Positions 2,350 through 29,376 of a DNA stretch of 36,408 nucleotides are shown in pieces. The notes below the pieces were generated by a model. The model saw only the letters and a program-made list of their open reading frames with translations. It was not told where the DNA came from and searched no databases. Within the stretch, counting starts at the first letter, position 1. Every line of letters starts with the position of its first letter. The stretch is from a virus, in IMG/VR virus record IMGVR_UViG_3300047378_000084, positions 1 to 36,408 of that record. One strand, written 5' to 3'. Both the position numbers and the translations under genes were made by a program.

Positions 2350-3954
2350 TTATCTCCTTCCTGATGGAGTGTAGTCTATATAAAGACCATTCACTGTATA
2401 TGGCGATTGTTGATCTGAACTTGTTACAATAAAACTTACAGTATGCCCACTGCCCTGTACAGTTTGACGTATTAAAGGATCTGAAGAGGCTCCAAATACA
2501 TTGGTTCCCAATATGCCTGATCCAAAAATACTAGGTAAAGGAATACTATCTAATACATAATCTAAAGGTTGTGCGATAAGAGGATCTTCATAATCATAAC
2601 GCACACGTAATGTAGGCTGTACTGATCCTTCAGGACTCATAGAGATGCGTACATAACGCATAGTTTTTTTAGTACCTACATCACCAAAGTCTAAGTTAGG
2701 TGTTTGATAAGCTGCTGTTACATTTGAAGCAGTACCGCCGTAGTCAAAAGAGTTACCACTATCATGATTATAAATATAACCATCGGTATCTCCATGCCAC
2801 GTTTGTTCAATACCATCAACATCTAAATCTGATGTCAATGCTGTAGCTTTAATTCCTAAAGTTTCTGAATACTGAAAACCTTCATTAGTTAACGTAGCTA
2901 TAATCCCTTTTGAAGCAGCATTAGCAGTACCGTTATTATTATAAAATAATCTATATTGTGATTTACTTCTAAGAACAGCACTGGTTATATCTAAGTTGTC
3001 AATGTTAGCTGCAATACTTTTAATCGTAGGCTGAATAGGTCTACTTACAGTTCCTAATTCAACGTCACCAATTCGTACTGTACCTGCAACGGTTCTAAGA
3101 CCGTCAGGACTCAAGAATAACAAGTCACCTGCAATTTCTTGAATGCTTTGGAAATCCATGCAGCCTACGTTTTTTGTAATAGGCTGTATCACAATACTAG
3201 AAGAATCATTAATGTTAAGAAGTTTAAAAATACTATTCTTACAAAAAATAATAAGGTCACTACGGAAACTAGCCAAACCTACTACTTGGTCTTCAAGTAC
3301 GATAGAACCTGCTCCAGTTCCTGAAAAATTATCAGGATCATTCGTATGGCTATAGTAGATTGTATTAGATGCAGAACCTGCACCAGCAACTACGAAGTGT
3401 TTGTCATGGATAGTGCCTACTGCCGGAGCAAGTGTTCCATCTACAGTTACTTCACCTGCAAAGAAAGTACGGGTATTTAAAGCACCAGTACCTTCCATTC
3501 TAAAAAAATAAGGCTTATTAGCCCCATCACATATAAGTATCTCACCGTAGTCTGACAAGCCTTCAAATAATGAAAAACTTATTTGTGATTGGTTAGTACG
3601 CGCTAAGTCTGTGCGGCCTGTAAAGGTTGTGTAGTTATCTCCACTACTGTGTACACTTTGCTTAGATATAGAAATCCAAGATGTACCATCCTGACTAAAA
3701 AAGATTCCAGTATTTGAACAAACTATTACACCATCAGCATAACCTCTAATACCTAGTACTTTAGCAGAGCCATTAGGACGTACTGATGAAGCTCCTCCAA
3801 AAAGATTAAAGCCATTAATACGACGATAACCACCATCAGTATCTACTTCAAAGTTTGTAAGCTTAGAAGCAATACCCGGCTGTCCCAGCATTTCAAGCTG
3901 GTTAAGGCTGGTATATAAACCACCTTTAGCTGATAAACCAAACGGCTGAGACAT
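2350..3954 (-). CDS. Tail nozzle-like virion protein (beta-rich, 534 aa)
   Basis: A 534-aa protein starting MSQPFGLSAKGGLYTSLNQ, followed by ASKLTNFEVDTDGGYRRING. This opening is typical of beta-propeller tail proteins in podoviruses of this size, comparable in place and style to P22 gp10 or T7 gp12 nozzle proteins. Strand-rich blocks (VVGLASFRSDLIIFCKNSIF, GDLLFLSPDGLRTVAG) suggest propeller blades. It sits between the adaptor-like gene and the fibre, where a nozzle is expected. Its ATG at 3954 shares a base with the TAA of the upstream gene (TAATG), and its last codons carry the SD of the fibre gene. Virion location is well supported by context; the exact tail part is inference. Confidence 0.65.
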   Translation of the reverse strand: MSQPFGLSAKGGLYTSLNQLEMLGQPGIASKLTNFEVDTDGGYRRINGFNLFGGASSVRPNGSAKVLGIRGYADGVIVCSNTGIFFSQDGTSWISISKQSVHSSGDNYTTFTGRTDLARTNQSQISFSLFEGLSDYGEILICDGANKPYFFRMEGTGALNTRTFFAGEVTVDGTLAPAVGTIHDKHFVVAGAGSASNTIYYSHTNDPDNFSGTGAGSIVLEDQVVGLASFRSDLIIFCKNSIFKLLNINDSSSIVIQPITKNVGCMDFQSIQEIAGDLLFLSPDGLRTVAGTVRIGDVELGTVSRPIQPTIKSIAANIDNLDITSAVLRSKSQYRLFYNNNGTANAASKGIIATLTNEGFQYSETLGIKATALTSDLDVDGIEQTWHGDTDGYIYNHDSGNSFDYGGTASNVTAAYQTPNLDFGDVGTKKTMRYVRISMSPEGSVQPTLRVRYDYEDPLIAQPLDYVLDSIPLPSIFGSGILGTNVFGASSDPLIRQTVQGSGHTVSFIVTSSDQQSPYTVNGLYIDYTPSGRR

Positions 3955-13049: not shown

Positions 13050-13078
13050 TTGACAGATTGAGAATCTGACACTATACT
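13050..13078 (+). promoter_or_regulatory. Early rightward sigma70-type promoter
   Basis: TTGACA (13050-13055), a 17-base spacer and TATACT (13073-13078). It has the same two boxes and spacing as the divergent late promoter 27 bases away, and shares the core ACACTATACT with it. It would transcribe the long leader and the early gene block. Confidence 0.85.
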
Positions 13079-13083: not shown

Positions 13084-13360
13084 AACAGCCGCCGAGGGTG
13101 TAAGTATGTATTATATAGATTTATATATATGTACTTTAAAGCTTTAAAAGGGAGCCGCAGTATGTGAAGATACTGTCAAGGTTAGACAACTTGAAAAGCT
13201 TTCAAAATGTTTATAATTGTATATATATACCCCCACCCCCGTACGGGCACCTGCCCACCCGCACGCGCCTACGCGATACGCGCACACCCGCACAAGCGCA
13301 TAAAGGTCGCACCATCTTCACAAGCCTTCACAAGCCTTTGAAGCCTTCACGCGCAAAACT

Positions 13361-13372
13361 TAACAAATGTTA
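13361..13372 (+). repeat. Palindromic repeat, copy 0 (variant TAACAAATGTTA)
   Basis: The core TAACAAATGTTA matches the other four copies, but the outer pair differs (T instead of C at the left end). It lies in the non-coding control region and, unlike the other copies, is not just upstream of an SD. Confidence 0.6.
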
Positions 13373-13524
13373 GATATTCCTCAAAGTACTTAAAAGCTTC
13401 CCAAGTATTCCAAAGCTTTGACAATCTTGTGCCGCGTTTAAAAAGCTTGTAAAAGTTAATCTTTATAACTTAAAAGCATAAGCCTTTCAAAGCCTTACAA
13501 GCTTTCCCCGTTCTTCCCAAGCCT

Positions 13525-13553
13525 TCCACAATCTATACTTTTTTTCCTATAAT
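13525..13553 (+). promoter_or_regulatory. Second rightward promoter candidate
   Basis: A perfect -10 box TATAAT (13548-13553) with a weak -35 TCCACA (13525-13530; 4/6) at 17-base spacing. It is followed at once by nested inverted repeats, a plausible regulated second start for the early genes. Confidence 0.5.
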
Positions 13554-13596
13554 AGGTACAGCCTTTCACATACTGTATAGATGTACAGTACCTATT
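13551..13596 (+). promoter_or_regulatory. Nested inverted repeats at second promoter
   Basis: Outer arms AATAGGTAC (13551-13559) and GTACCTATT (13588-13596) are exact complements. Inner arms TACTGTA (13571-13577) and TACAGTA (13584-13590) are also exact. The two right-hand arms overlap, so the pairings exclude each other in RNA. As DNA, both are operator-like. The half-site ATACTGT also occurs at 13170 and, reversed, at the late promoter. Confidence 0.5.
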
Positions 13597-13813
13597 CCCT
13601 CCCCGTGTTAACTTCATGCCTTGCAAGCTTTTATTGAAAATCCCTACAAAATATTTACAAGCTTTTCCCTAGTCTTTTCAATGACTTACAATCATTCCCA
13701 ACAGGAATATAACCTAGTCCAAAAAATCTCTATAGAAATCATGCCACCTAAATTAAATTCCTCACATCGCCAAGGCAACAACGCCAACGGCAAACACTGT
13801 GAGGGATCGCAAA

Positions 13814-14308
13814 ATGGATAAGAAAGAAATCAGAAGTATAGCCAGCGCAATTACTACGCTAGATAACAGGAATGCGACAATAGCATCAAGGCTCTTTGAA
13901 GTATTGAAGCCAGCAATAAATAGCAGCGACATGGCGACATGGAAGCAAGCTAAAAAAGAATTCGCGGAAGCCTTGGGATTTAAAAGCCTTAACAAGTACA
14001 CGGAAGAAAAAGGCGGAAGCTTGGCCCAACGGGTGAGTGAATTCACGTGGGCAGTTGAAGGCGTAGGCTTTGAATTAGAAAGCTTCGGCGACTACCTAGC
14101 AGCCAAGGCGGAAATGCTGGAAGCCCAGAAGGCAGCCAAGGCGGAAGAAAAGGAAAAGGCGGAAATGGCGGAAGCCTTGGAAGCTTCACAAGCGCAACCG
14201 ACTGAAAAGCTTTTAGCGTTAATCAATGCGCTAAAGGCGGCGGCATCCTTACCAGCAGAAGATCAAGACGCGCTAGCGGACGCACTGTCGCCACTAGTTA
14301 AAGTGTAG
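13814..14308 (+). CDS. Helical early protein of unknown function (164 aa)
   Basis: First gene of the rightward operon. It starts MDKKEIRSIASAITTLDNRN and is helical. The N-terminal 90 residues are a compact, mixed-charge domain (ATWKQAKKEFAEALGFKSLN); from about residue 95 it is an Ala/Glu/Lys-rich coiled coil (AAKAEMLEAQKAAKAEEKEK), ending with another helix. ATG 13814 has GAGGGA eight bases upstream, the same SD style as the next two genes; a GTG at 13799 lacks one. The gene itself is rich in AAGCTT (14017, 14080, 14181, 14207) and AAGCCTT words, like the region before it. As the gene nearest the control region it is a candidate regulator, but no DNA-binding motif is certain. Confidence 0.7.
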   Translation: MDKKEIRSIASAITTLDNRNATIASRLFEVLKPAINSSDMATWKQAKKEFAEALGFKSLNKYTEEKGGSLAQRVSEFTWAVEGVGFELESFGDYLAAKAEMLEAQKAAKAEEKEKAEMAEALEASQAQPTEKLLALINALKAAASLPAEDQDALADALSPLVKV

Positions 14309-14464
14309 GGAATCCCTCCACGCCCTAGGCATGGCGCTAAACTGCCTACGCTAGACGCTAGCCATTAGATCCCGTCGGGGTTTAATGAGTAGCGCCAAGG
14401 CTCTACAAGCTTGCCAAGATAGCGGACGGATACTCTGCTGCCCGGTGTAAGTGTTAGAAAAAAC
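14309..14464 (+). other. Intergenic leader, weak hairpin, no gene seen
   Basis: About 155 bases, more GC-rich than its surroundings, with no ORF above 15 codons. One hairpin ATCCC-GTC-GGGGT (14369-14381) followed by TTTAAT could be a weak terminator. No tRNA arms or T-loop were found. A structured 5' leader for the following membrane-protein gene is possible. Confidence 0.3.
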
Positions 14465-14478
14465 CTAACAAATGTTAG
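14465..14478 (+). repeat. Palindromic repeat CTAACAAATGTTAG, copy 1
   Basis: Perfect 6-base inverted repeat with AA centre, flanked by AAC on the left and AAAATTTGAGGG on the right, so the SD of the next gene starts only a few bases after the right arm. Confidence 0.85.
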
Positions 14479-14497
14479 AAAATTTGAGGGATAGAAA

Positions 14498-14689
14498 ATG
14501 TTAAACAAAGCTCTTTTAATAATGTCCGCAATCATCACATCTATTGTTTTGATGTGGTCGGGTATATGGTTGACATGGGCATATTACGCTACCGATATGG
14601 CAACGCATGACATGCTTTTTATTGTTGGCCCAATGTTAGTGCTTGTTGGCTTTGCGTCACCATTTGCGGTCATCGAAGAATTAAAGTAA
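14498..14689 (+). CDS. Small inner-membrane protein with two TM segments (63 aa)
   Basis: Two hydrophobic helices: about residues 4-28 (ALLIMSAIITSIVLMWSGIW) and about 40-58 (LFIVGPMLVLVGFASPFAVI), joined by a short polar loop (YYATDMATHD). The short charged C-terminus ends EELK. GAGGGA lies upstream of ATG 14498, directly behind palindromic repeat copy 1. Early expression and membrane location suggest an effect on host envelope, superinfection or transport. It lacks the dual-start or charged-tail signs of a holin and lies far from the lysis genes. Function unknown. Confidence 0.7.
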   Translation: MLNKALLIMSAIITSIVLMWSGIWLTWAYYATDMATHDMLFIVGPMLVLVGFASPFAVIEELK

Positions 14690-14693
14690 AAAC

Positions 14694-14707
14694 CTAACAA
14701 ATGTTAG
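14694..14707 (+). repeat. Palindromic repeat CTAACAAATGTTAG, copy 2
   Basis: Identical core to copy 1, starting five bases after the membrane-protein stop; followed by AAAATTTTGAGGG, the SD of the 73-aa gene. Confidence 0.85.
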
Positions 14708-14726
14708 AAAATTTTGAGGGAAGCAA

Positions 14727-14948
14727 ATGACATTGGCAGAAAAGTTTTGGGAATGGGAACACAGTCAGCGCATACGCTGGAAGGGTGGCGACCACGACTA
14801 TAAAGTCCAACAGTTTGATGCGGGTGCAGAGGTTGCATATTTCAGCAAGTACCCCGATGGTGACGGATACTACGACGATCAAACGCTGGTGACGTTCAGC
14901 GACGGATCGCAAACCAATTTCAATTATAAAGGTGAGGAAGGCTGGTGA
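14727..14948 (+). CDS. Small acidic/aromatic hypothetical protein (73 aa)
   Basis: Reads MTLAEKFWEWEHSQRIRWKG, then an acidic, Tyr-rich centre (YFSKYPDGDGYYDDQTLVTF). Predicted beta strands (EVAYFSKY, TLVTFSD, QTNFNYKG) suggest a small beta-sheet fold. ATG 14727 is preceded by GAGGG. Its TGA overlaps the GTG start of the next gene (GTGA), so the two are probably translated together. The N-terminal KFWEW resembles that of the 47-aa gene at 16815, which may show common ancestry or the same partner. Function unknown. Confidence 0.65.
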   Translation: MTLAEKFWEWEHSQRIRWKGGDHDYKVQQFDAGAEVAYFSKYPDGDGYYDDQTLVTFSDGSQTNFNYKGEEGW

Positions 14949-15634
14949 AATTACTAGACACGACAGGCGGCAACGCCAAGCTAAAAAAGAGCGACAAGAG
15001 TAGCCAAGAATACCGGCTCGCAGGCTTATCACTGATGCCCGATGACATACTCTGTCCCTATCGAAACGTGGCAGGCTGCGCTAAGTCTTGCCTAGAGTCA
15101 GCAGGCATGGGCGTATTTTCAAACGTCAAGGCTGGAAGGCAACGCAAAACTGACTGGTGGCATAGTGATCGGGTTGGGTTCTTGGATCAGTTACGCAAAG
15201 AGCTTGGCAACTTTCAAAAGCTTTGCAAGCGTCAAGGTGTCAAGGCGGCAGTCCGTCTTAATGTATTGTCGGACATACCTTGGGAAAAGCATGGGATACT
15301 GCAGGAGTTTCCCGATATTTTCTTCTATGACTACACCAAGAATGCGTCAAGACTGGGCAAGACTCCCGACAATTACGAGTTGATGTTTTCGTACAGTAAC
15401 GAGCCGGACTATCAGAAGCATGTCGCTAAGGCTTGGAATACCGACGCGCCTATATCGGTGGTGTTCCGTGGCGGTATGCCAGAGCATTACAAGGGACGCA
15501 GGGTGATTGATGGCGATGCCTCAGACCTTGTGAACGTCAAGGCTGGTAGGGTTGTTGTCGGGTTGGTAGCCAAGGGCAAGGCCAAGAAAGATGAGGGTAA
15601 CTTTGTTGTTGATAATGTGATTGCGGTAGGGTAA
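14945..15634 (+). CDS. GP88-like cysteine-containing protein (229 aa)
   Basis: Begins (GTG start) MKLLDTTGGNAKLKKSDKSS. A cysteine cluster follows, CPYRNVAGCAKSCLESAG (about residues 37-54), and then FSNVKAGRQRKTDWW and a Lys/Arg-rich helix. The order GGNAKL - LSLMPDD - CP...GC..SC - KAGRQRKT resembles the GP88 family of unknown function, known from mycobacteriophages and other phages. The C-terminal half has beta strands around SVVFRGGMPEHYKGRRVIDG and is followed by an NVKAGRVVVGLVAKG segment. The cysteines could bind a metal or Fe-S cluster. GTG 14945 is forced by the GTGA overlap, with GAGGAAGG upstream. Family assignment is by eye. Confidence 0.6.
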   Translation: MKLLDTTGGNAKLKKSDKSSQEYRLAGLSLMPDDILCPYRNVAGCAKSCLESAGMGVFSNVKAGRQRKTDWWHSDRVGFLDQLRKELGNFQKLCKRQGVKAAVRLNVLSDIPWEKHGILQEFPDIFFYDYTKNASRLGKTPDNYELMFSYSNEPDYQKHVAKAWNTDAPISVVFRGGMPEHYKGRRVIDGDASDLVNVKAGRVVVGLVAKGKAKKDEGNFVVDNVIAVG

Positions 15635-15637
15635 AAC

Positions 15638-15651
15638 CTAACAAATGTTAG
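15638..15651 (+). repeat. Palindromic repeat CTAACAAATGTTAG, copy 3
   Basis: Same core and AAAC left flank as copies 1 and 2, four bases after the GP88-like stop; here followed by AAACTTGGAGAT, the SD for the 53-aa gene. Confidence 0.85.
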
Positions 15652-15669
15652 AAACTTGGAGATAAAATA

Positions 15670-15831
15670 ATGGAAGAACAAATAATCTTTACAAAAAAAG
15701 AATTGTGGTTGAATCAGGCTCCTTCTTGGAATTTTGAGCTTGACGAAGACCAACTGCTTTCAAAAGCTTTGCAGGTTGGCTTTGTCACTAAGGTTGGTGA
15801 TGATTCTTACTTAGTCAATCAGGATTATTAA
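15670..15831 (+). CDS. Small hypothetical protein (53 aa)
   Basis: Reads MEEQIIFTKKELWLNQAPSW, then NFELDEDQLLSKALQVGFVT and a short end. A winged-helix-sized peptide with one clear helix (DEDQLLSKALQVG) followed by a beta turn (FVTKVGDDSYLV). ATG 15670 has TTGGAG eight bases upstream. It fills the space between palindromic repeats 3 and 4 exactly and so belongs to the same regulated group. No family recognised. Confidence 0.6.
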   Translation: MEEQIIFTKKELWLNQAPSWNFELDEDQLLSKALQVGFVTKVGDDSYLVNQDY

Positions 15832-15832
15832 C

Positions 15833-15846
15833 CTAACAAATGTTAG
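15833..15846 (+). repeat. Palindromic repeat CTAACAAATGTTAG, copy 4
   Basis: Last copy; it begins two bases after the 53-aa stop and is followed by AAACTTGGAGGATG, nearly identical to the flank of copy 3. Confidence 0.85.
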
Positions 15847-15861
15847 AAACTTGGAGGATGT

Positions 15862-16032
15862 ATGGAAACTAGATTAGTAATGGTCACGATGCAGCGTGGC
15901 GGTGGAGGCCCTAGCATGTACCGCTTGGCGTATGGGAAGGTGCTGTCTGACGGCAGGACAATTATAAAAGCAGCCCTGCGTGAGAGCATGGCTAGAGAGT
16001 TAGGTATCCAACGTGGAGAAGCGGTGAGATGA
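15862..16032 (+). CDS. Small basic hypothetical protein (56 aa)
   Basis: Reads METRLVMVTMQRGGGGPSMY, then RLAYGKVLSDGRTIIKAALR and a charged helical end. The first half is strand-like with a four-glycine turn; the second half is a helix (KAALRESMARELGI). Two ATGs are possible (15858 gives no frame; 15862 is in frame with GGAGGA four to six bases upstream). The TGA at 16030-16032 overlaps the methyltransferase-like start (ATGA), which suggests translational coupling and perhaps joint work. Function unknown. Confidence 0.6.
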   Translation: METRLVMVTMQRGGGGPSMYRLAYGKVLSDGRTIIKAALRESMARELGIQRGEAVR

Positions 16033-16613
16033 AAGTACTTGTAGCGTGTGAGTCTAGCGGTACAGTCCGCGAAGCTTTTAGAAAGCTTGGGCATGAAGTT
16101 TGGTCTAATGATCTGTTGCCTGCTGATGATGGCAGTGAGTATCACTTGCAGATGGATTGTGAGGAGGCGATAGGTTGGGACGATTGGGATTTGATTATCA
16201 TGCACCCACCCTGTACAGCCTTGGCGGTCAGCGGCAACTCTACCTATGCAAAGGGAATGCCTAAGCATGACGAGCGTTTGCGGTCGATTGAGTGGACTAC
16301 AAAGCTTTATCAGTTGGCTATTATTGCCTGCGACAAAGTGTGTATGGAGAACCCTGTCGGGGTGTTACCGTTCAAGCCTACGCAGTATGTACAGCCTTGG
16401 ATGTTCGGTCATCCTGAGTCTAAAAAGACAGGCTTGTGGCTTCATGGTTTGCCCAAGCTGGGCGAAACTAACAACGTAAAAGAGGAGTTTGATGGACTAC
16501 CGAAACGGGAACAGCAACGGCTGCATTACCTACCACCCTCAGAGGATAGGTGGAAGATACGCAGCAAAACTTTTCAAGGTCTAGCAGATGCTATGGCCGA
16601 GCAGTGGGGATAG
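16029..16613 (+). CDS. Small DNA cytosine-C5 methyltransferase-like protein
   Basis: 194 aa. Motif I-like start VLVACESSGTVREAF (residues 3-17), motif IV HPPCTALAVSGN with Pro-Pro-Cys at 60-62, and motif VI ENPVG at 107-111 match the C5-methyltransferase fold, which uses that Cys to attack cytosine and S-adenosylmethionine as methyl donor. At 194 aa it is far shorter than a typical enzyme (300+ aa), and no target-recognition domain or motifs IX and X are seen. It may act on a simple target, be a base-modifying relative, or be inactive. A role in hiding phage DNA from restriction enzymes is the natural inference. ATGA overlap with the upstream gene. Confidence 0.7.
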   Translation: MKVLVACESSGTVREAFRKLGHEVWSNDLLPADDGSEYHLQMDCEEAIGWDDWDLIIMHPPCTALAVSGNSTYAKGMPKHDERLRSIEWTTKLYQLAIIACDKVCMENPVGVLPFKPTQYVQPWMFGHPESKKTGLWLHGLPKLGETNNVKEEFDGLPKREQQRLHYLPPSEDRWKIRSKTFQGLADAMAEQWG

Positions 16614-16615
16614 GT

Positions 16616-16810
16616 ATGTTGATTGAGAAGAGGTCTGGACTTACAGGCAAGGTGCATGTCTTGGACGTGCCGGTAACTGTGCAGCAGATAGAGGCTTGGC
16701 AGGGTGGAGAGTTGATTCAGAACGCTATGCCTGACCTGTCTGCTGAGTTTCGTGAGTTTTTGATGACAGGTATAACGCCTTTTGAATGGAAAGAAAATTT
16801 TGGAGCATAA
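16616..16810 (+). CDS. Conserved small phage protein (64 aa, REFLMTGITPFEW motif)
   Basis: Reads MLIEKRSGLTGKVHVLDVPV, then VQQIEAWQGGELIQNAMPDL, ending REFLMTGITPFEWKENFGA. The pattern SGLTG - VT..Q...W..G..IQ.A.P.L - REFLMTGITP.EW recurs in many short-tailed phages, usually annotated as hypothetical. Helical and compact, probably one small domain. ATG 16616 lies two bases after the methyltransferase TAG and is used here because the upstream in-frame ATG (16550) lies inside the methyltransferase gene without an SD. A host-targeting or transcription-related role is possible but unproven. Confidence 0.7.
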   Translation: MLIEKRSGLTGKVHVLDVPVTVQQIEAWQGGELIQNAMPDLSAEFREFLMTGITPFEWKENFGA

Positions 16811-16814
16811 GAGT

Positions 16815-16958
16815 ATGGATTTGTATGACGATAAGTTTTGGGAATGGATGGCGCAGTGCCCAGTGGAGCATAACGCTAATCCAGACAACGTAGATATGTA
16901 CGGTCAGCGGTTAGCTGGTGTTAACTTTTTTGTGGAGGAAGAAGATGAGGAGTCCTAA
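16815..16958 (+). CDS. Small acidic hypothetical protein (47 aa)
   Basis: Reads MDLYDDKFWEWMAQCPVEHN, then ANPDNVDMYGQRLAGVNFFV and EEEDEES. The N-terminal FWEW and a C-terminal run of acidic residues suggest a short helix-turn peptide. ATG 16815 follows four bases after the previous stop. The end overlaps the next gene by 14 bases, whose SD (GGAGG) lies in its codons. It was too short for an ordinary ORF scan but fits the run of small genes. Unknown function; DNA-mimic-like acidity is only a remark. Confidence 0.55.
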   Translation: MDLYDDKFWEWMAQCPVEHNANPDNVDMYGQRLAGVNFFVEEEDEES

Positions 16959-17169
16959 GTATGTGTTCACCCGTATACCTAATGATGAGGCCGGGCGTGA
17001 GCTAGTTGAGAAGATGCGTAAGTATCTAAACAGGGACAGGTATAGCCTTCGGGTACGGGGTCAGGGTCTTATTGACGGTGAGAATTGGAGGCGCTATGGT
17101 TACGGTCAGCCCTTGGATAAGTCCAAGTACATCAGAATCTATGTAGAGGAGAAAGCTAATGAGCAATAG
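16945..17169 (+). CDS. Small basic hypothetical protein (74 aa)
   Basis: Reads MRSPKYVFTRIPNDEAGREL, then VEKMRKYLNRDRYSLRVRGQ and a Tyr-rich end (RYGYGQPLDKSKYIRIYVEE). Arg and Lys are abundant. Secondary structure looks like strand-helix-strand-strand. ATG 16945 has GGAGG six bases upstream; an earlier in-frame TTG (16918) has none. The gene overlaps the next by 11 bases. No family is recognised; a nucleic-acid-binding fold is plausible from the charge. Confidence 0.6.
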   Translation: MRSPKYVFTRIPNDEAGRELVEKMRKYLNRDRYSLRVRGQGLIDGENWRRYGYGQPLDKSKYIRIYVEEKANEQ

Positions 17170-17440
17170 AACTAAGTTTGGTAAGACAAGGGACGTATCA
17201 GAACCCTACGCTACCTTTAAAAACCCACAGGGTTGGGAGTGGCGTGTACTCAAGACCTATCAGAGCGTTAAGAAGGAACGTGACAATCAGTATGCACGAT
17301 GGTTTGTTGCAGCTAAGTCACCTATGACGCATGGTAGCTGGGAGTACGGTGATACGTATGTAAGAGAAGTTGAGAACTACGGTCACTTAACTTCAGCAAC
17401 TAGTGACTGGTTAGAGGAGTACCTGAATGAACTTTCATAA
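17159..17440 (+). CDS. Conserved hypothetical early phage protein (93 aa)
   Basis: Reads MSNRTKFGKTRDVSEPYATF, then GWEWRVLKTYQSVKKERDNQ, and YARWFVAAKSPMTHGSWEYG. The block WEWRVLKTYQ - KE..N.YARWFVAAKSPMTHGS.EYGDTYV is a strongly patterned, aromatic-rich sequence seen as a hypothetical protein in marine phages. Mostly beta, one C-terminal helix (SDWLEEYLNEL). Both ends overlap neighbours (11 and 14 bases). Function not known. Confidence 0.7.
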   Translation: MSNRTKFGKTRDVSEPYATFKNPQGWEWRVLKTYQSVKKERDNQYARWFVAAKSPMTHGSWEYGDTYVREVENYGHLTSATSDWLEEYLNELS

Positions 17441-17690
17441 TGTAAAGAGTGTGAATGTTGAGCGTGACAACAAGCGTGGTTGGACTACCATTAAGATCAC
17501 CCGACATGAGAGGTTGGATGTGGACGTTGAGTCGGAGGTTGCTATTGCTAAGGCTTTCGGCATCGACAGGTGGGACATGGCTGATGTTGTTCGCAGTATC
17601 AATAAGAATGGTACGGTGACTGATGAGATAACTTTGTTTCATGTTGATGATGGCATGATTGATATAAATATGGAGACTGTAAATGAGTAA
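17427..17690 (+). CDS. Small hypothetical protein (87 aa)
   Basis: Reads MNFHNVKSVNVERDNKRGWT, then TIKITRHERLDVDVESEVAI and AKAFGIDRWDMADVVRSINK. Strands at both ends surround one helix (ESEVAIAKAFGI). Acidic. ATG 17427 lies in the tail of the previous gene (14-base overlap), whose GAGGAG is the SD; its own end overlaps the following gene by 8 bases. No family recognised. Confidence 0.6.
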   Translation: MNFHNVKSVNVERDNKRGWTTIKITRHERLDVDVESEVAIAKAFGIDRWDMADVVRSINKNGTVTDEITLFHVDDGMIDINMETVNE

Positions 17691-17901
17691 TGATATATGT
17701 TGGGTTGAGGCGCATAAGTCTCACCCTGATGCCCCTTGGAACCAGCCTGATGCCGATGACCTCACCTTTGAGTTTGCGGTCACGATAGATTTGGTGGTCA
17801 GGGCGGTTGATAGACACGATGCGGTGAATATAGCGGAGGCGCTAATAAAACCGTCACCAGAACTGATCGACACAGAAATGATGCAGGTAATGGAGCTTTG
17901 A
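17683..17901 (+). CDS. Small acidic hypothetical protein (72 aa)
   Basis: Reads MSNDICWVEAHKSHPDAPWN, then QPDADDLTFEFAVTIDLVVR and a helix (VDRHDAVNIAEALIKPS). The middle FEFAVTIDLVVRAVDRHDAV is a beta strand leading into a helix, a ferredoxin-like pattern. ATG 17683 starts 8 bases inside the previous gene; the stop is one base before the next ATG. Function unknown. Confidence 0.55.
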   Translation: MSNDICWVEAHKSHPDAPWNQPDADDLTFEFAVTIDLVVRAVDRHDAVNIAEALIKPSPELIDTEMMQVMEL

Positions 17902-17902
17902 T

Positions 17903-18118
17903 ATGACTTACTTACAAATGGCACAGTTCATAATGAAAGAGATGCCAAAAGATCTAAGGGATAAGGCTGTTGTGGGCTTCATGCCTTGGGGTTTTGATGA
18001 GTCTGGAGGCATTGATGGTTCGTTTAGAAAGATCTCTGTTCACTATAATATACAAGACGGCAAGTCTTTAGAGCCTGTCGTTACTATGGAGTTTGATCAT
18101 GATATACCGACTGCGTAA
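17903..18118 (+). CDS. Small hypothetical protein (71 aa)
   Basis: Reads MTYLQMAQFIMKEMPKDLRD, then KAVVGFMPWGFDESGGIDGS and a beta end (ISVHYNIQDGKSLEPVVTME). One N-terminal helix is followed by strands. ATG 17903 follows the previous TGA after one base. The last 20 bases overlap the next gene. No family is recognised. Confidence 0.55.
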   Translation: MTYLQMAQFIMKEMPKDLRDKAVVGFMPWGFDESGGIDGSFRKISVHYNIQDGKSLEPVVTMEFDHDIPTA

Positions 18119-18278
18119 GTTTAAGACACGCTATGGCGTACATTCCGGGCGGTGCTATACGGGCATCCACTTTGGCCGACGCTCATGGTACATACCTCAT
18201 CACGACAGGGGTCATCTGTTTAAGGTTGAGGATAAGGATGGCAGGACTATGGTGTCCCGTCTCATAACAAGGAAATAA
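18099..18278 (+). CDS. Small Arg/His-rich basic protein (59 aa)
   Basis: Reads MIYRLRKFKTRYGVHSGRCY, then TGIHFGRRSWYIPHHDRGHL and a short charged end. Very basic (many Arg, Lys, His), with beta-strand patterning. ATG 18099 has GGAG eight bases upstream; a TTG at 18093 is less likely. It overlaps the end of the 71-aa gene. Nucleic-acid binding would fit its charge. No family recognised. Confidence 0.55.
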   Translation: MIYRLRKFKTRYGVHSGRCYTGIHFGRRSWYIPHHDRGHLFKVEDKDGRTMVSRLITRK

Positions 18279-18333
18279 CTCTCCGGCACCTGAGCATGTG
18301 TGTAAACTGCTCGCCTTTAATTTGGAGAATGAA

Positions 18334-18618
18334 ATGGATAATATAGATATATTTGTAGATCACTTTGTGATTCACTCTGAGAGTCGTGAGGCTTTGATAC
18401 TCAATGCTGGTAGTTCAGCGGAGTTTGAGAAGCACTTGCGTAATCTTGTATCACAGGAGATTCGTGCTGCTTTGTCAGCAGAGATAAATTCTTTTGAGGA
18501 AGAGATCACAAAGTCTAAGGGCGTTAAGCGTGAGAGGTTGATAGATGGCGCTAATGCTTTGAGGGGCCTCAGAAGTGATCTTGTGTGGGAGAAGGTTAGA
18601 GTAGGGGTGTCAGCATGA
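18334..18618 (+). CDS. Small helical hypothetical protein (94 aa)
   Basis: Reads MDNIDIFVDHFVIHSESREA, then LILNAGSSAEFEKHLRNLVS and a coiled-coil-like helix (EIRAALSAEINSFEEEITKS). ATG 18334 is preceded by TTGGAG with suitable spacing; an upstream in-frame ATG (18298) lacks an SD and would use the 55-base gap after the previous gene. The TGA overlaps the next start (ATGA). The alternation of charged residues in the second half suggests dimerisation. Function unknown. Confidence 0.6.
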   Translation: MDNIDIFVDHFVIHSESREALILNAGSSAEFEKHLRNLVSQEIRAALSAEINSFEEEITKSKGVKRERLIDGANALRGLRSDLVWEKVRVGVSA

Positions 18619-18866
18619 ATGATTTATTTTACAAGGCTGTCAAGGCTCAGAAAAATCTTGATAAGATATACCCAGACAGGTACTGGCCTGTCGGCGCTGA
18701 GTCCCCTCCTAAGCCTCACATCATCAAGGTTACTCAGATGTATGCGGGAGGAGTACGACCACGCGACATCATCAAGCAGCTTGGCATGAGCAAAGCTATG
18801 GTGATCAGTATTATAAAGCGTTCACGTTTCAATCAAGAGTCTAAGTATCGTGCAAAATATAATTGA
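18615..18866 (+). CDS. Small helix-turn-helix protein (83 aa)
   Basis: After MNDLFYKAVKAQKNLDKIYP, the stretch VTQMYAGGVRPRDIIKQLGM followed by SKAMVISIIKRSRF (about residues 39-73) has the spacing of a helix-turn-helix of the resolvase/Hin or terminase-like kind: helix, G-V-R-P turn, D-I-I-K-Q-L-G, S-K-A-M-V-I-S-I-I recognition helix. The C-terminus is basic. As the only clear HTH in the rightward early block it is a candidate transcription regulator, perhaps for the palindromes upstream. ATGA overlap with the previous gene. Confidence 0.65.
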   Translation: MNDLFYKAVKAQKNLDKIYPDRYWPVGAESPPKPHIIKVTQMYAGGVRPRDIIKQLGMSKAMVISIIKRSRFNQESKYRAKYN

Positions 18867-18867
18867 C

Positions 18868-19041
18868 ATGTGTAACCACATCCTAGGCTTCAGTGATTGT
18901 TACTTTGAAACGGGGAGAGTAACACCTGTTGTTCGTGAGGATGCTCTAAGGCTGTGTCAGAAGCATGGTGATGACTTCTGCATAGGGTTCGTTGCTATCT
19001 ACCTTGAGGTACAGAATCAGGAGTATCAAAAATTCTTTTGA
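18868..19041 (+). CDS. Small hypothetical protein with cysteines (57 aa)
   Basis: Reads MCNHILGFSDCYFETGRVTP, then VVREDALRLCQKHGDDFCIG and an aromatic end (VEVQNQEYQKFF is its approximate tail). Helical, with four cysteines spread along the chain. ATG 18868 lies one base after the TGA of the HTH gene; a GTG at 18850 is in frame but has no better SD. The stop is inside the -35 box of the next promoter, so this gene ends the transcription block before it. Function unknown. Confidence 0.5.
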   Translation: MCNHILGFSDCYFETGRVTPVVREDALRLCQKHGDDFCIGFVAIYLEVQNQEYQKFF

Positions 19042-19066
19042 CACCGTTTGATATCTTGTGTACAAT
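19038..19066 (+). promoter_or_regulatory. Rightward sigma70-type promoter for replication genes
   Basis: TTGACA (19038-19043), a 17-base spacer and TACAAT (19061-19066). It gives an independent start some 30 bases before ATG 19097, which has AAGGAG. It would raise expression of the ssDNA-binding protein and its neighbours over the upstream small genes. Confidence 0.75.
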
Positions 19067-19552: not shown

Positions 19553-20008
19553 ATGCGTATGATTGATGGTATTCCACAAGTGTTAACTGGCGAAGCCTTT
19601 TATCCACATGTGAAAGTTCCTGTCCCTAACTTCAGCGGTGACCGTAACGGGTATGAGATTAACCTAGCGGTATCTGATGAGGTATATAATCAGTTCGTTG
19701 CTGCTGGCTTCAACGTCGGTGTCAAGGCGGCTGGTCGTTCTAAGTACACGGAAGATCCCGTGATTCATTTCTATCAGTGGGAAGTGAACGGTAAGGGTGA
19801 GAAGAATCCTGCACCTAGACTGGTAGACCTTGAGAAGAATGAGATTGATGTGCAGATTGGTAACGGCTCAAAGGTAGCAGTGCAGTGGCGAGCAGCCGTG
19901 TACGGGCCTAACAAGCAGTACAAACGTGCCATCCTTGAGAACGTACAGATCATCGAGCTTGTCGAGTACGGGCAGGGTGCATCTGGTGAATCAGCTTTAG
20001 CATTTTAG
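19553..20008 (+). CDS. Single-stranded DNA-binding protein (T7 gp2.5-like)
   Basis: 151 aa. The OB-fold type beta pattern is clear: YPHVKVPVPNFSGDRNGYEI, FVAAGFNVGVKAAGRSKYTE, HFYQWEVNGKGEKN, VQWRAAVYGPNKQYKRAILE. It would coat single-stranded DNA at the fork and contact polymerase and helicase. Like gp2.5 it ends with a phenylalanine, although the last stretch is less acidic than in T7. AAGGAG before ATG 19553. Placed directly ahead of primase-helicase and polymerase, as in T7-like phages of this group. The family is recognised by pattern and place rather than by a unique motif. Confidence 0.7.
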   Translation: MRMIDGIPQVLTGEAFYPHVKVPVPNFSGDRNGYEINLAVSDEVYNQFVAAGFNVGVKAAGRSKYTEDPVIHFYQWEVNGKGEKNPAPRLVDLEKNEIDVQIGNGSKVAVQWRAAVYGPNKQYKRAILENVQIIELVEYGQGASGESALAF

Positions 20009-26439: not shown

Positions 26440-28276
26440 TTATGATCGGGAAGAAACCCTTAATAATTTTTCTTTAGAAACTTTAAAAGACCGTTACTTT
26501 TGGGGAGATGAGACACATGCCCAAGAAGCCTTCGCCAGAGCGTCCGTCTATGGTGCAACGTATCAGGGACTTACTGACTATGATCTTGCACAGCGACTTT
26601 ACAACTACGCAAGTAAGAGTTGGTTCGGCTTTAGCACTCCTATACTTAGCAACGGGGGAACCACACGTGGCCTCCCTATTAGCTGTTTTCTTAATTATGT
26701 TCCTGATTCAAGGCGCGGCCTATCTGATCATTATGATGAGAACATATGGCTGGCAAGTGGAGGTGGAGGCTTGGGTGGATATTGGGGTGATGTTAGAAGC
26801 AACGGCGTTTCTACTGCTAACGGCAGTCAGTCTACTGGTAGCATCCCTTTCATGCACGTAGTTGATAGTCAGATGTTGGCCTTCAATCAAGGTATCACCC
26901 GAAGGGGATCTTATGCAGCGTACATGGACATCAGTCACCCAGAGGTTGAAGAGTTTATTGCTATGCGTAAGACTACTGGTGGTGATCTTAATCGTAAGTG
27001 TCTTAACCTACACAATGGTATCTCCATTACTGATGAGTTCCTTGAAGCTGTAAGAGGTGACGGTCAGTGGCGCTTGATTGACCCTAAGTCTAAGCAGGCA
27101 GTAAAAACTTTATCAGCTAGGGACTTGTGGTGGCAGCTAGTGCATACCAGAGCAGAGACAGGTGAACCCTATATCGTTAACCTAGACCGCTGTAATGAGG
27201 CTCTACCGCAGGAACAGAAGGATCTAGGCTTAGAGGTACGTCAGAGTAACCTATGCTCTGAGATTACCCTACCGACCAGTGAGGAGCGTACAGCAGTGTG
27301 CTGCTTATCTAGTGTTAACCTAGAATACTTTGATGAGTGGAAGGACGATGAACAGTTCATTGATGATCTCATTACAATGCTTGACAATACCTTAGAACAT
27401 TTTATTGATAACGCTATACAGACAGTAGGCATATCACAACAATGCAATACTTTGCAGGAGTTTAAGTATCATGTGGACTTGGATAAAAAAGGGTTTACAA
27501 AAGCCGCTTATTCAGCATATAGAGAACGGGCGGTTGGTCTTGGAGCGATGGGTTTTCATAGTTACCTTCAACGTAATGGAATCCCTTTTGCAGGAATGTA
27601 CGCCGCCAGCTTTAACAATAGAGCGTTTAAAACGATCAAAGACAGAGCTACGATGGCTTCCCGGCGTTTGGCTGGAAACCGTGGGGAGGCTCCTGACATG
27701 GCTGGCAGTGGCCTGCGTAATTCCCATCTGCTTGCTATTGCCCCTAATGCTAGTTCTAGTATTATATGTGGTGGAACAAGCCCTTCTATTGAGCCTACGA
27801 GGGCTAACGTATTTACGCACAAGACTCTGACAGGCTCTTTCAAAGTAAAAAATAAATACTTGGAGGAACTACTTGAAAGTAAAGGCATCAATACCGAAGA
27901 AACGTGGAAGGATATTGCTGCTGCTGAAGGCTCTGTTAAAGACTTGGAGGAACTCACGGAAGAGGAGAAGGAAGTATTTAAGACAGCGCCAGAACTCAAC
28001 CAGATCTGGGTTATTGAACACGCCTATCAGCGACAGAAGTACGTCTGCCAAGCACAGTCAGTAAACTTATTCTTTGAGCCACCACCCGCTACAGCACCAC
28101 AGGAGGTACACGATGAGTATTTGGAGTATGTTAATAGCGTGCATTGGACAGGAGCTAACAAACTCAAATCTATGTATTACCTGCGAACTACAGCGGCTAG
28201 AAATACAGAGAATGTTAACATCAAGATCCCTAGAATCAACCTTGAAGACGGGGAGTGCCTAAGCTGTGAAGGATGA
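26393..28276 (+). CDS. nrdA: Ribonucleoside-diphosphate reductase, alpha subunit (class I)
   Basis: 627 aa. Catalytic elements are seen: PISCFLNYV (first active-site Cys), SNLCSEI (thiyl Cys), CCLSSVNL (partner Cys), the MYYLRT tyrosine pair for radical transfer, and NTENVNIKIPRI near the end with a terminal CLSCEG thiol pair for reduction. No N-terminal ATP-cone is present, so the dATP feedback switch of the E. coli enzyme (761 aa) is probably lost. It turns ribonucleotides into deoxyribonucleotides with the beta subunit encoded 1.1 kb downstream. ATG 26393 fits AAGGA spacing; ATG 26384 would sit on it. Confidence 0.95.
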   Translation: MTSKIGIQDYLGIQIDYDREETLNNFSLETLKDRYFWGDETHAQEAFARASVYGATYQGLTDYDLAQRLYNYASKSWFGFSTPILSNGGTTRGLPISCFLNYVPDSRRGLSDHYDENIWLASGGGGLGGYWGDVRSNGVSTANGSQSTGSIPFMHVVDSQMLAFNQGITRRGSYAAYMDISHPEVEEFIAMRKTTGGDLNRKCLNLHNGISITDEFLEAVRGDGQWRLIDPKSKQAVKTLSARDLWWQLVHTRAETGEPYIVNLDRCNEALPQEQKDLGLEVRQSNLCSEITLPTSEERTAVCCLSSVNLEYFDEWKDDEQFIDDLITMLDNTLEHFIDNAIQTVGISQQCNTLQEFKYHVDLDKKGFTKAAYSAYRERAVGLGAMGFHSYLQRNGIPFAGMYAASFNNRAFKTIKDRATMASRRLAGNRGEAPDMAGSGLRNSHLLAIAPNASSSIICGGTSPSIEPTRANVFTHKTLTGSFKVKNKYLEELLESKGINTEETWKDIAAAEGSVKDLEELTEEEKEVFKTAPELNQIWVIEHAYQRQKYVCQAQSVNLFFEPPPATAPQEVHDEYLEYVNSVHWTGANKLKSMYYLRTTAARNTENVNIKIPRINLEDGECLSCEG

Positions 28277-28520
28277 ACACCCGGTCTATAGGGCACAGTT
28301 CTATATACCTGAGCTAAAAAAGTACACCAACTGGCATGACTATCTGGTATACTATAGGGAACAGGATGACAAGATTATGTTGTTCAGTAACTACTGTATG
28401 CAGATGTGGGCCAGTTACATGAACGATAAGATCAAACAACAAGAGGCACCCTTGAGTTACAAGGAGTACCTTAGTAAATTTAAAGAATTACTGGAGGATG
28501 GATACAGTGATAGACCCTAA
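28266..28520 (+). CDS. Small hypothetical protein within rnr operon (84 aa)
   Basis: Reads (GTG start) MKDEHPVYRAQFYIPELKKY, then TNWHDYLVYYREQDDKIMLF and a helix (YCMQMWASYMNDKIKQQEAP). Tyr-rich, mixed charge. The GTG at 28266 overlaps the nrdA TGA by 11 bases, a coupling style seen throughout the window. It is neither a glutaredoxin (no CxxC) nor an NrdI or NrdF-type maturation factor by sequence. It overlaps the next gene. Function unknown. Confidence 0.6.
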   Translation: MKDEHPVYRAQFYIPELKKYTNWHDYLVYYREQDDKIMLFSNYCMQMWASYMNDKIKQQEAPLSYKEYLSKFKELLEDGYSDRP

Positions 28521-28710
28521 GATCAACGCGCTCATGAAGCTTTACAAAGCTGAGATAGCTGTTTACAAGGAAGAGATCCAAAACTATCTGGACAATCCCG
28601 TAGCAGTTGGTGAGCACGGTAACTTGATTGAGACTATGGATACGTTAGTTCAGAAGATGGCTGAGTCTGAAGACAAGCTCATCGTGTTGGAGACACATTT
28701 TAATGAGTAA
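28507..28710 (+). CDS. Small coiled-coil hypothetical protein (67 aa)
   Basis: Reads (GTG start) MIDPKINALMKLYKAEIAVY, then KEEIQNYLDNPVAVGEHGNL and a second helix (ETMDTLVQKMAESEDKLIVL). Two helices joined by a Gly-rich turn, an antiparallel coiled-coil pattern. GGAGG lies nine bases before GTG 28507; the in-frame ATG 28498 touches the SD and is rejected. Overlaps both neighbours (14 and 8 bases). No family is recognised. Confidence 0.55.
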   Translation: MIDPKINALMKLYKAEIAVYKEEIQNYLDNPVAVGEHGNLIETMDTLVQKMAESEDKLIVLETHFNE

Positions 28711-28921
28711 CATAATTAACTTAATGCCTGAAGACGCTACGGCTGATGAGGTTTTAGAGGATGCCAAGGGCAGTTACAAGGACGTACTAATCCTTGGCTG
28801 GGATGAAGAGGGTATGTTGAATGCTAAGTCAACTACTTCTCTAGATGTAAAAGAGCTTGTGTACATGATTGAAGTATTTAAGTCTGTTGTAATTACAGCA
28901 GGGCATGAGATAGATGCTTGA
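28703..28921 (+). CDS. Small hypothetical protein (72 aa, LGWDEEG motif)
   Basis: Reads MSNIINLMPEDATADEVLED, then AKGSYKDVLILGWDEEGMLN and LDVKELVYMIEVFKSVVITA. The pattern VLILGWDEEGMLNAKSTTSL followed by ELVYMIEVFK is seen in small phage proteins of unknown role, a ferredoxin-like strand-helix layout. Acidic. ATG 28703 lies in the previous gene; the end overlaps the next gene by 8 bases. Function unknown. Confidence 0.6.
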   Translation: MSNIINLMPEDATADEVLEDAKGSYKDVLILGWDEEGMLNAKSTTSLDVKELVYMIEVFKSVVITAGHEIDA

Positions 28922-29081
28922 TAATCTACCTAAGATAGTTGTTAAGAAAGTCACAGAGAATGAGGATGGTTCTGCTAACATGGAACTGGACTTAGACTCT
29001 CAAGCAGTACAGCTACTACTTGACATAGGTTTGACTAGACTGCTTGAAGAACATTTGGAGAACAACAAAGATGAGCGATGA
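28914..29081 (+). CDS. Small hypothetical protein (55 aa)
   Basis: Reads MLDNLPKIVVKKVTENEDGS, then ANMELDLDSQAVQLLLDIGL and a charged end (TRLLEEHLENNKDER). Beta strand then helix. ATG 28914 overlaps the previous stop; the last 11 bases overlap the MazG start. The gene was missed by length cut-offs but tiles the operon exactly. The conserved-looking LLLDIGLTRLLEEHL helix suggests a folded domain. No family recognised. Confidence 0.6.
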   Translation: MLDNLPKIVVKKVTENEDGSANMELDLDSQAVQLLLDIGLTRLLEEHLENNKDER

Positions 29082-29376
29082 ACTGATACACCTGATTAGC
29101 CTATGGTCTATGCAGCGTGGTATAATCAACAACAGTACACCCTTGGCACAGTTTGCTAAACTTGTGTCAGAGGTAGGCGAGCTAGGGGACAACGTAGCCA
29201 AGGAGCGTGATGTTACTGATGACATTGGGGACTGCTTGGTGGTACTAAATAACCTAGCCATTATGAATGATACGACCCTTGAGGAATGCCTGAAGGTAGC
29301 GTACAATGATATTAAAGACAGAAAGGGACACATGAATACACATGGTGTCTTTATCAAAGAGGGAGATGCAGCTTGA
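29071..29376 (+). CDS. mazG: MazG-like nucleotide pyrophosphohydrolase
   Basis: 101 aa, the usual length of single-domain MazG. Metal-binding motifs: EVGELGD (E-x2-E) and DDIGDCLVVL (D-x3-D), with the helical frame MSDELIHLISLWSMQRGI before and YNDIKDRKGHMNTHGVFIK after. It hydrolyses NTPs or dNTPs to monophosphates; in phages it is thought to adjust nucleotide pools or the ppGpp stress signal. ATG 29071 is used with GGAG 10 bases upstream. Its TGA overlaps the nrdB TTG start. It lies between nrdA and nrdB, tying it to nucleotide metabolism. Confidence 0.85.
   Translation: MSDELIHLISLWSMQRGIINNSTPLAQFAKLVSEVGELGDNVAKERDVTDDIGDCLVVLNNLAIMNDTTLEECLKVAYNDIKDRKGHMNTHGVFIKEGDAA

Follow-up and report, generated by a model that had tools for sequence, protein, structure and literature searches.

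Compact H-type pseudoknots are familiar from the preQ1-I riboswitch, a small RNA with an A-rich loop. In phages, the gene 32 pseudoknot of T4 and T2 is an H-type pseudoknot in phage message upstream of a start codon and lies 67 nucleotides (nt) upstream of an SSB gene (PMC3014915). The element described here is an H-type pseudoknot in IMG/VR virus record IMGVR_UViG_3300047378_000084, whose whole stretch of 36,408 nt is referred to as the window. It occupies the gap between H and I, two members of a run of small early genes named A to K (16616-19041, + strand). Unlike the gene 32 pseudoknot, those of the window type are 27 nt long, follow stop codons, lie about 20-30 nt before diverse genes and occur in multiple copies and in unrelated phages. 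The gene 32 leader position is also unmatched, as the window copies begin at 14321 and 18286 and the SSB gene at 19553. Unlike preQ1-I, the pseudoknot gives no Rfam match up to E 1 and is tied to no one metabolic gene set in the sites seen. The gene arrangement resembles that of the Pelagibacter phages HTVC115P and HTVC103P, which also carry an early run of small genes, nearly all hypothetical (22 and 35, respectively), upstream of the SSB gene and then primase and polymerase on the same strand. The HTVC115P gene at 2902-3180 is 44% identical to window gene D. Otherwise the two phages differ from the window in gene content and, in the stretches examined, have neither the pseudoknot pattern nor an exact copy of the palindromic box CTAACAAATGTTAG described below.

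The H-I gap holds a 27-nt H-type pseudoknot in which both stems covary. The window carries two copies, which differ in both stems:
14321..14347, + strand: pseudoknot copy 1, 27 nt, beginning 12 nt past the end of the first early gene (13814-14308)
18286..18312, + strand: pseudoknot copy 2, 27 nt, stem 1 GCAC/GUGU, stem 2 GAGCA/UGCUC, 7 nt after the H stop and 21 nt before I

The 37-bp stretch 18276-18312 is still 95% identical in relatives L003, L004 and L047 despite replacement of the block around it, and in L021 it lies within a patch of 92% identity. Comparable stretches are found elsewhere in these phages and also in phages less closely related. The gathered loci were scanned for five paired bases around TG-N4-TAAAC, which yielded 33 distinct contexts, two or three of them judged to be chance; the same scan with the loop read backwards yielded none. 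The consensus is NNNC-CU-GAGYA-U-GNNN-NUAAAC-URCUC, in which stem 1 (NNNC/GNNN) and stem 2 (GAGYA/URCUC) follow the H-type order.

Covariation was examined in two alignments and two scans. In the first alignment (21 sequences, 20 distinct) 98.3% of the pair cells were standard and 26 cells were doubly changed, and none of 500 shuffles scored as high. IMG/VR was then scanned with stem 2 and the loops fixed and stem 1 left free, which retrieved at least 120 stretches. Among the 107 distinct sites in these stretches, the three free positions of stem 1 formed Watson-Crick pairs in 107, 106 and 86, compared with shuffled means of 46, 44 and 33, and some two dozen different fully paired triplets were represented. 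The position just outside stem 1 was unpaired (22 versus 34 shuffled). In the converse scan, with stem 1 and the loops fixed and stem 2 free, 127/133 sites paired at all five positions. Most of these loci had been gathered by GAGYA, leaving as informative the 14 sites whose stem 2 differs; 11 of them are fully paired. With the loops reversed no site was found. A second alignment of 38 sequences, including five named phages, had 98.5% of cells paired, compared with 23-45% in slid controls, and double changes in 7/9 pairs, although its metagenome rows were picked among pairing sites, which favours the structure.

Placement was scored in 150 sites with a complete stem 2 and at least 3/4 stem-1 pairs, 126 of which have an open reading frame (ORF) of at least 40 codons ending no more than 80 nt upstream. 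The spacer after the stop is 4-16 nt in 87/126 sites and 5-8 nt in 57/126, and the stop itself is TAA in 97/126. An ORF starts within 90 nt downstream in 112/126 sites, with quartiles of 20-32 nt. Under stricter criteria, which leave 141 sites, same-strand neighbours are found upstream in 125/135 and downstream in 111/134. A phage may carry up to four copies, and the genes that follow are diverse, among them a glutaredoxin or PhoH region, a scaffolding protein and small genes of no assigned role.

Several named phages carry the pseudoknot, namely SIO1 (after ribonucleotide reductase), P12053L and Lentibacter phages ICBM1-3. The copy in Synechococcus phage S-EIVl has one broken pair (DNA match E 0.003). 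The copy in Lactobacillus phage phig1e lies between two genes with stem 1 UGAC/GUCA; as its DNA match is only E 0.1, it was accepted because of its full pairing and its position. The usual spacing between a stop and the next start applies to SIO1 and phig1e as well. Synechococcus phage S-CRM01 gave a match at E 0.03 that lies under a gene. The Rfam search covered the window stretch and 15 loci. In the literature searched, which was covered by abstracts and passages and did not take in the catalogue of viral and phage structured RNAs reportedly compiled by Fremin and others in 2023, no description of the pseudoknot or of the CTAACAAATGTTAG box was recognised. The pseudoknot class seems to be previously undescribed.

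Between 16616 and 19041 on the + strand there are 11 ORFs with plausible starts, 47-94 codons long, covering 97.5% of the interval, which bears out the ten or more genes counted by the first-pass annotation. In the list below, loci are those with homologues by tblastn among 223 loci gathered with primase, D and A as baits (A and D are thus their own baits); the 223 are not independent and fall into 135 groups by shared sequence. The ratio of nonsynonymous to synonymous substitution rates is given as dN/dS, model confidence as predicted local distance difference test (pLDDT), and length in amino acids (aa).
16616..16810, + strand: gene A, 64 aa, ITPFEW family, phrog_20898, degenerate zinc-finger-like, model pLDDT 95.1
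16815..16958, + strand: gene B, 47 aa, 23 loci, dN/dS 0.21
16945..17169, + strand: gene C, 74 aa, 25 loci, dN/dS 0.07
17159..17440, + strand: gene D, 93 aa, WEWRVLKTYQ family, 97 loci, dN/dS 0.10, model pLDDT 92.5, small beta-rich fold predicted
17427..17690, + strand: gene E, 87 aa, 55 loci, dN/dS 0.28
17683..17901, + strand: gene F, 72 aa, 24 loci, dN/dS 0.26
17903..18118, + strand: gene G, 71 aa, 11 loci, dN/dS 0.29 from a single pair
18099..18278, + strand: gene H, 59 aa, 62 loci, dN/dS 0.12 from a single usable pair
18334..18618, + strand: gene I, 94 aa, 30 loci, dN/dS 0.18
18615..18866, + strand: gene J, 83 aa, dN/dS 0.11, weak helix-turn-helix (HTH) similarity
18850..19041, + strand: gene K, 63 aa from GTG (or 56-57 aa from a later start, 18868), 55 loci, dN/dS 0.09, present in 18/18 relatives

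The genes had been described as nearly all overlapping. Seven of the ten junctions are overlaps of 4-20 nt (six if K starts at 18868), and the others are gaps of 1 and 4 nt and the 55-nt H-I gap, the sole wide one. Every gene has homologues, from 11 (G) to 97 (D) of the 223 loci, with a median dN/dS of 0.07-0.29 when set against relatives, similar to that of neighbouring genes. Because of these homologues and the low dN/dS, A-K are judged to be real coding genes, beyond chance. That the ORFs are instead chance or non-coding frames, an artefact of dense open frames, is exceedingly improbable: they are short and nearly all lack a database name, but all 11 have homologues under low dN/dS and their order is kept in close relatives.

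To follow the block between phages, relatives were defined as loci with GP88, SSB and primase in order and a primase at least 75% identical; 18 remained after duplicates were dropped. The region compared with them includes two genes to the left of A:
14945..15634, + strand: gene for a GP88-family protein (PF17338 at 1.1e-37), the conserved left flank of the exchanged region
16029..16613, + strand: predicted DNA methyltransferase gene (phrog_757 at 3.6e-59), present in 10/18 relatives

The interval 16616-19041 is part of an exchangeable early-gene island: the genes within it are replaced from one relative to another, and the flanks are preserved. Genes A to K are present, in that order, in 7, 9, 7, 13, 16, 9, 5, 13, 13, 15 and 18 of the 18 relatives, and a single relative holds from 1 to 11 of the 11 genes. 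L003 and L004, whose primase is 99% identical to that of the window, retain only K and E, I and J (38-59% identical). They carry other genes instead, including members of clusters f10 and f12, other members of which match DUF932 and Pyr_excise. The DNA matches that of L003 at 97% identity as far as 13256 and again from 18856; between these points only GP88 and short patches align. The block is a variable early region that lies just upstream of SSB-primase-polymerase and borders the predicted methyltransferase; its gene content changes much more quickly than the regions to either side. Clusters seen in related early regions include C5 methylases and a PDDEXK-like protein. Since content is swapped between the 18 relatives and the flanks are kept, the island behaves as an accessory region.

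Two motifs singled out by the first-pass annotation proved to be true family signatures. Gene A, with motif REFLMTGITPFEW, matches phrog_20898 at 1.4e-21, and its family has matches in 41/50,697 phage records (Gordonia, Aeromonas, Stenotrophomonas, Acinetobacter and Vibrio phages, and others). Since 4/30 aligned members have CxxC near both ends and the window copy has none, A looks like a zinc finger that may have lost its metal site. For gene D (WEWRVLKTYQ...), at least 556 IMG/VR stretches hold a relative, yet only 1/50,697 phage records has a match; it is thus very common in environmental phage contigs and nearly absent from isolate and other phage records, a gap in the culture collections. 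In a bacterial genome collection no copy of A was confirmed (one exact peptide pattern, a weak test), and D was found in two metagenome-assembled genome contigs, possibly phage DNA. The description of J as an HTH protein drew weak support from phrog_125 (0.0027) and, with the family profile, from HTH chains of NarL, Pax and resolvase at about 0.005-0.05. A match of J to 8vd6_A (8.6e-15) was not used, since no stretch passed alone and it looks like repeat noise.

Searches for function were otherwise uninformative. Scans of 10 block proteins with PADLOC, Pfam and PHROGs, libraries that include few early host-takeover or anti-defence families, gave no convincing or informative match, and K, scanned separately, gave none. 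PDB profile searches gave chance-level matches only for families A, D, E and H and generic HTH chains only for J. The confident models of D and A have no PDB relative at E 0.001 or better. For D the best Foldseek E was 0.47 and the best VIA-align Z 4.2, with rows mostly of NatC, Sm and Tudor small barrels, a hint that the predicted fold may be a small beta-barrel; three close BFVD matches are all uncharacterised. The A model gave no VIA-align row with a Z of 2 or more.

With a stop codon in the ribosomal A site, a 5-8-nt spacer would place a following pseudoknot at or near the mRNA entrance. The pseudoknot 7 nt past the H stop would meet the mRNA entrance of a ribosome terminating on H. Most likely, it would be a gene-boundary device: it would protect the upstream message at its end and hold the ribosome that terminates there, or space it, thereby uncoupling H from I. 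The spacing after the stop is preserved, the genes downstream vary and, in the window, the element interrupts the overlapping run; a function in termination, message ends or coupling is therefore preferred to a gene-specific switch. The close rival is a protein-binding operator, through which a phage or host RNA-binding protein would repress the downstream gene as T4 gp32 does on its own message. Its topology is that of the gene 32 pseudoknot (PMC3014915), and the next start lies at quartiles of 20-32 nt downstream; several copies per phage (up to four), the diversity of the following genes and the equally kept position after the stop make it possible but rather unlikely. A very small metabolite-sensing riboswitch is improbable. 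Compact pseudoknots such as preQ1-I can be riboswitches (PMC11625349), and the loops UAAAC and CU are conserved, but no consistent pathway lies downstream, the element sits between genes within operons and Rfam offers no riboswitch up to E 1. Stop-codon readthrough or recoding is disfavoured, as most of the 126 sites have fewer than 25 open codons past the stop and 97 of the stops are TAA. A scan for Rho-independent terminators found no terminator-like site (G+C-rich stem and T run) at 14321 or 18286.

For the island, position and the methyltransferases fit host takeover and DNA protection, and its small proteins would most likely adapt the host cell to infection through host takeover, DNA protection and counter-defence. 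The first-pass annotation had expected host-takeover and anti-defence genes here by comparison with T7-like phages. The variable early region, the methyltransferase beside it and the fast turnover are as expected of such genes, without a convincing library match among the 10 proteins scanned; the phage is of the HMO-2011/HTVC103P kind, so the T7 analogy is positional only. The first-pass annotation overlooked the structured RNA between H and I and the repeated boxes preceding the small genes upstream of the block. A narrower view, that the block is specifically an anti-defence island in which most of A-K inhibit restriction, CRISPR or other defences, is doubtful. It draws on the early position, small size and fast turnover of the genes, on the adjoining predicted methyltransferase and on the C5 methylases and PDDEXK-like protein of related early regions. 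However, the libraries, which contain few anti-defence proteins, gave no known one as a match to any block protein. A is conserved at 40% or more in phages whose hosts differ widely and D is widespread, which is more in keeping with a common target in host or phage than with a single defence system. Taken whole, we consider it probable that the locus is an exchangeable early island in which the H-I pseudoknot acts as a gene-boundary device. Several points weigh against this explanation. The link to termination is not strict: in 39/126 sites the pseudoknot is at least 18 nt away from its assigned stop, and 21/141 sites fall within a called ORF. Spacing to the next start is conserved about as well as spacing to the stop, so an operator also fits. 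The shuffle controls take no account of shared descent, and the early regions of HTVC103P and HTVC115P have the gene run without the pseudoknot pattern. The functions proposed for the block proteins are putative, and the operon structure of A-K is predicted from sequence.

Four sites in the window match the sigma-70-type promoter consensus at 11/12 positions with 17-nt spacing:
13050..13078, + strand: probable sigma-70-type promoter of the early operon, TTGACA-17-TATACT, 11/12
13022-12994, - strand: divergent sigma-70-type site, 11/12, 17-nt spacing
19038..19066, + strand: probable promoter of the next operon, TTGACA-17-TACAAT, 11/12
24872, + strand: sigma-70-type site, 11/12, 17-nt spacing

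Between 12.9 and 31.7 kb these four compare with a mean of 0.32 in dinucleotide shuffles (maximum 2; 0/100 reach 4), and the laxer 9/12 class is not enriched (31 versus 33.2). Among 14 relatives checked, the 19038 promoter scores 10-11/12 in L012 and in six close ones (L002, L003, L005, L015, L017 and L021) and 7-9/12 in the other seven. Host polymerase would probably start one long message at 13050-13078, running through the methyltransferase gene and on through A-K, and the second promoter at 19038-19066 would start the replication operon. Most A-K neighbours overlap and would probably be translated by coupling. Past the divergent promoters lies a long leader (13140-13700) rich in low-complexity stretches and in repeats resembling AAGCTT and CAAGCCTT; it may be an origin or have a regulatory role.

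Upstream of the block lies a near-palindromic box, CTAACAAATGTTAG:
14465-14478, 14694-14707, 15638-15651 and 15833-15846, + strand: exact copies, each between the stop codon and the ribosome-binding site of small genes
13360-13373: copy with one mismatch, in the leader

With up to two mismatches on both strands there are 9 matches against 0.56 expected, and 0/100 shuffles have as many. A 16-mer containing the box occurs in at least 119 IMG/VR stretches, compared with 17 for a rearranged control; in isolate phages only chance-level matches were found. Loci with two or more boxes belong to two phage groups that share almost no proteins, plus one further locus tied to the first group, and in longer records with several boxes the copies cluster in one part of the genome. 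Over the loci gathered, 143 sites are oriented along both flanking genes and 47 opposite; in the window all four exact copies are on the coding strand. Relatives without CTAACAAATGTTAG have other palindromes in similar places, or none was found. The other palindromes seen before early genes are TTACACAATGTAA, CTAACAGTTGTTAG and variants, TTATACTGTATAA and TTTACAATTGTAAA (L012:4893-7373; L025:2321-3794; L035:107-1208; L233 near 5000). It is as if the sequence specificity of the palindrome changed with phage group.

Two rearrangements involve the box. Gene 15670-15831, between two boxes in the window, precedes gene 14727 in L005, with the joint at a box, and L002 lacks the stretch 15655-16028 and has one box left. 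These cases suggest that the boxes may be operators or hairpins doubling as exchange points. A small gene lying exactly between two boxes (L107:3250-3504) has a 60% identical relative (L298:1880-2149) in the unrelated box-bearing group. At L156:6036-6073, on the same contig as L084 and L292, two tandem boxes are spaced by 24 nt and enclose no gene, as an empty slot would. Across 14471-15870 the ATG in each exact box opens a short frame ending near the next gene start (MLETWR*, MLETWRMYGN*, MLENLRDRKC* and MLENFEGSK*, read by eye), and these may possibly be leader peptides.

The box may be a symmetric DNA operator or an RNA hairpin; single RNA folds are weak (z -0.2 to -2.0). J as the box-binding protein is disfavoured, as J is only 40% identical in L041, which has the same box. 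The identity of the first early gene (13814-14308) follows box type in relatives, 71-81% with the same box and 32-37% with another. The first early genes of the two box-bearing groups have no profile relation (hhalign probability below 1%), and because of this we can only guess that its product may bind the box. The box also resembles the attC-like pattern RYYYAAC...GTTRRRY; a recombination site of this kind was considered and not taken up, no integrase search having been made. Mycobacteriophage L5-type stoperators are similarly repeated short sites, mostly oriented with transcription and of group-specific sequence (PMC6550527). Unlike them, the box is near-palindromic, is confined to 13.3-15.9 kb in the window and has no repressor identified.

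The record is one virus stretch of 36,408 bases with 42.9% G+C. Minus-strand big genes occupy both ends, and plus-strand ones the stretch of about 13.8-30.5 kb. Placement was judged by portal, polymerase and primase, looking for HMO-2011-type morphogenesis with related replication genes, both of which were found. The portal protein is 61% identical to that of HTVC115P, 58% to HTVC103P and 51% to HMO-2011, and the polymerase and primase are 50% and 47% identical to those of HTVC103P. On the portal and polymerase identities, the phage is assigned as a relative of the HMO-2011/HTVC103P-type marine podoviruses and not as T7 itself. The HTVC103P-type core group is delimited by 30.8-34.0% G+C and at least 33% shared ORFs (PMC8528129). 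At 42.9% the phage lies outside that G+C range, and it resembles the uncultured 'group IV' of the same source more than the low-G+C core group. A 98-bp direct repeat of 78% identity lies near the left end of the record (794-891 and 1040-1137). At 28266-29376, between genes of 627 and 323 aa, five more small genes (55-101 aa) overlap or abut one another in a second run. The two flanking genes are presumably the two ribonucleotide reductase subunits.

A broader reading is held tentatively, with slightly more doubt than belief. The H-I spacer may represent a widespread, undescribed class of phage RNA in which a pseudoknot after stop codons acts on the terminating ribosome or on the end of the message and defines gene boundaries in polycistronic messages of alphaproteobacterial, cyanobacterial and lactobacilli phages. 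Here it would work alongside a second system, the palindromic CTAACAAATGTTAG box with its group-specific variants, which would delimit the early genes that are swapped. A run of tiny phage genes of the kind usually passed over is here coding and exchangeable, and it provides a candidate list for functional screens. As the pseudoknot occurs with strong covariation in cultured phages (SIO1, phig1e), its structure and role are testable now. If the reading is true and such boundary pseudoknots are common, phage operons would have to be read and annotated differently.

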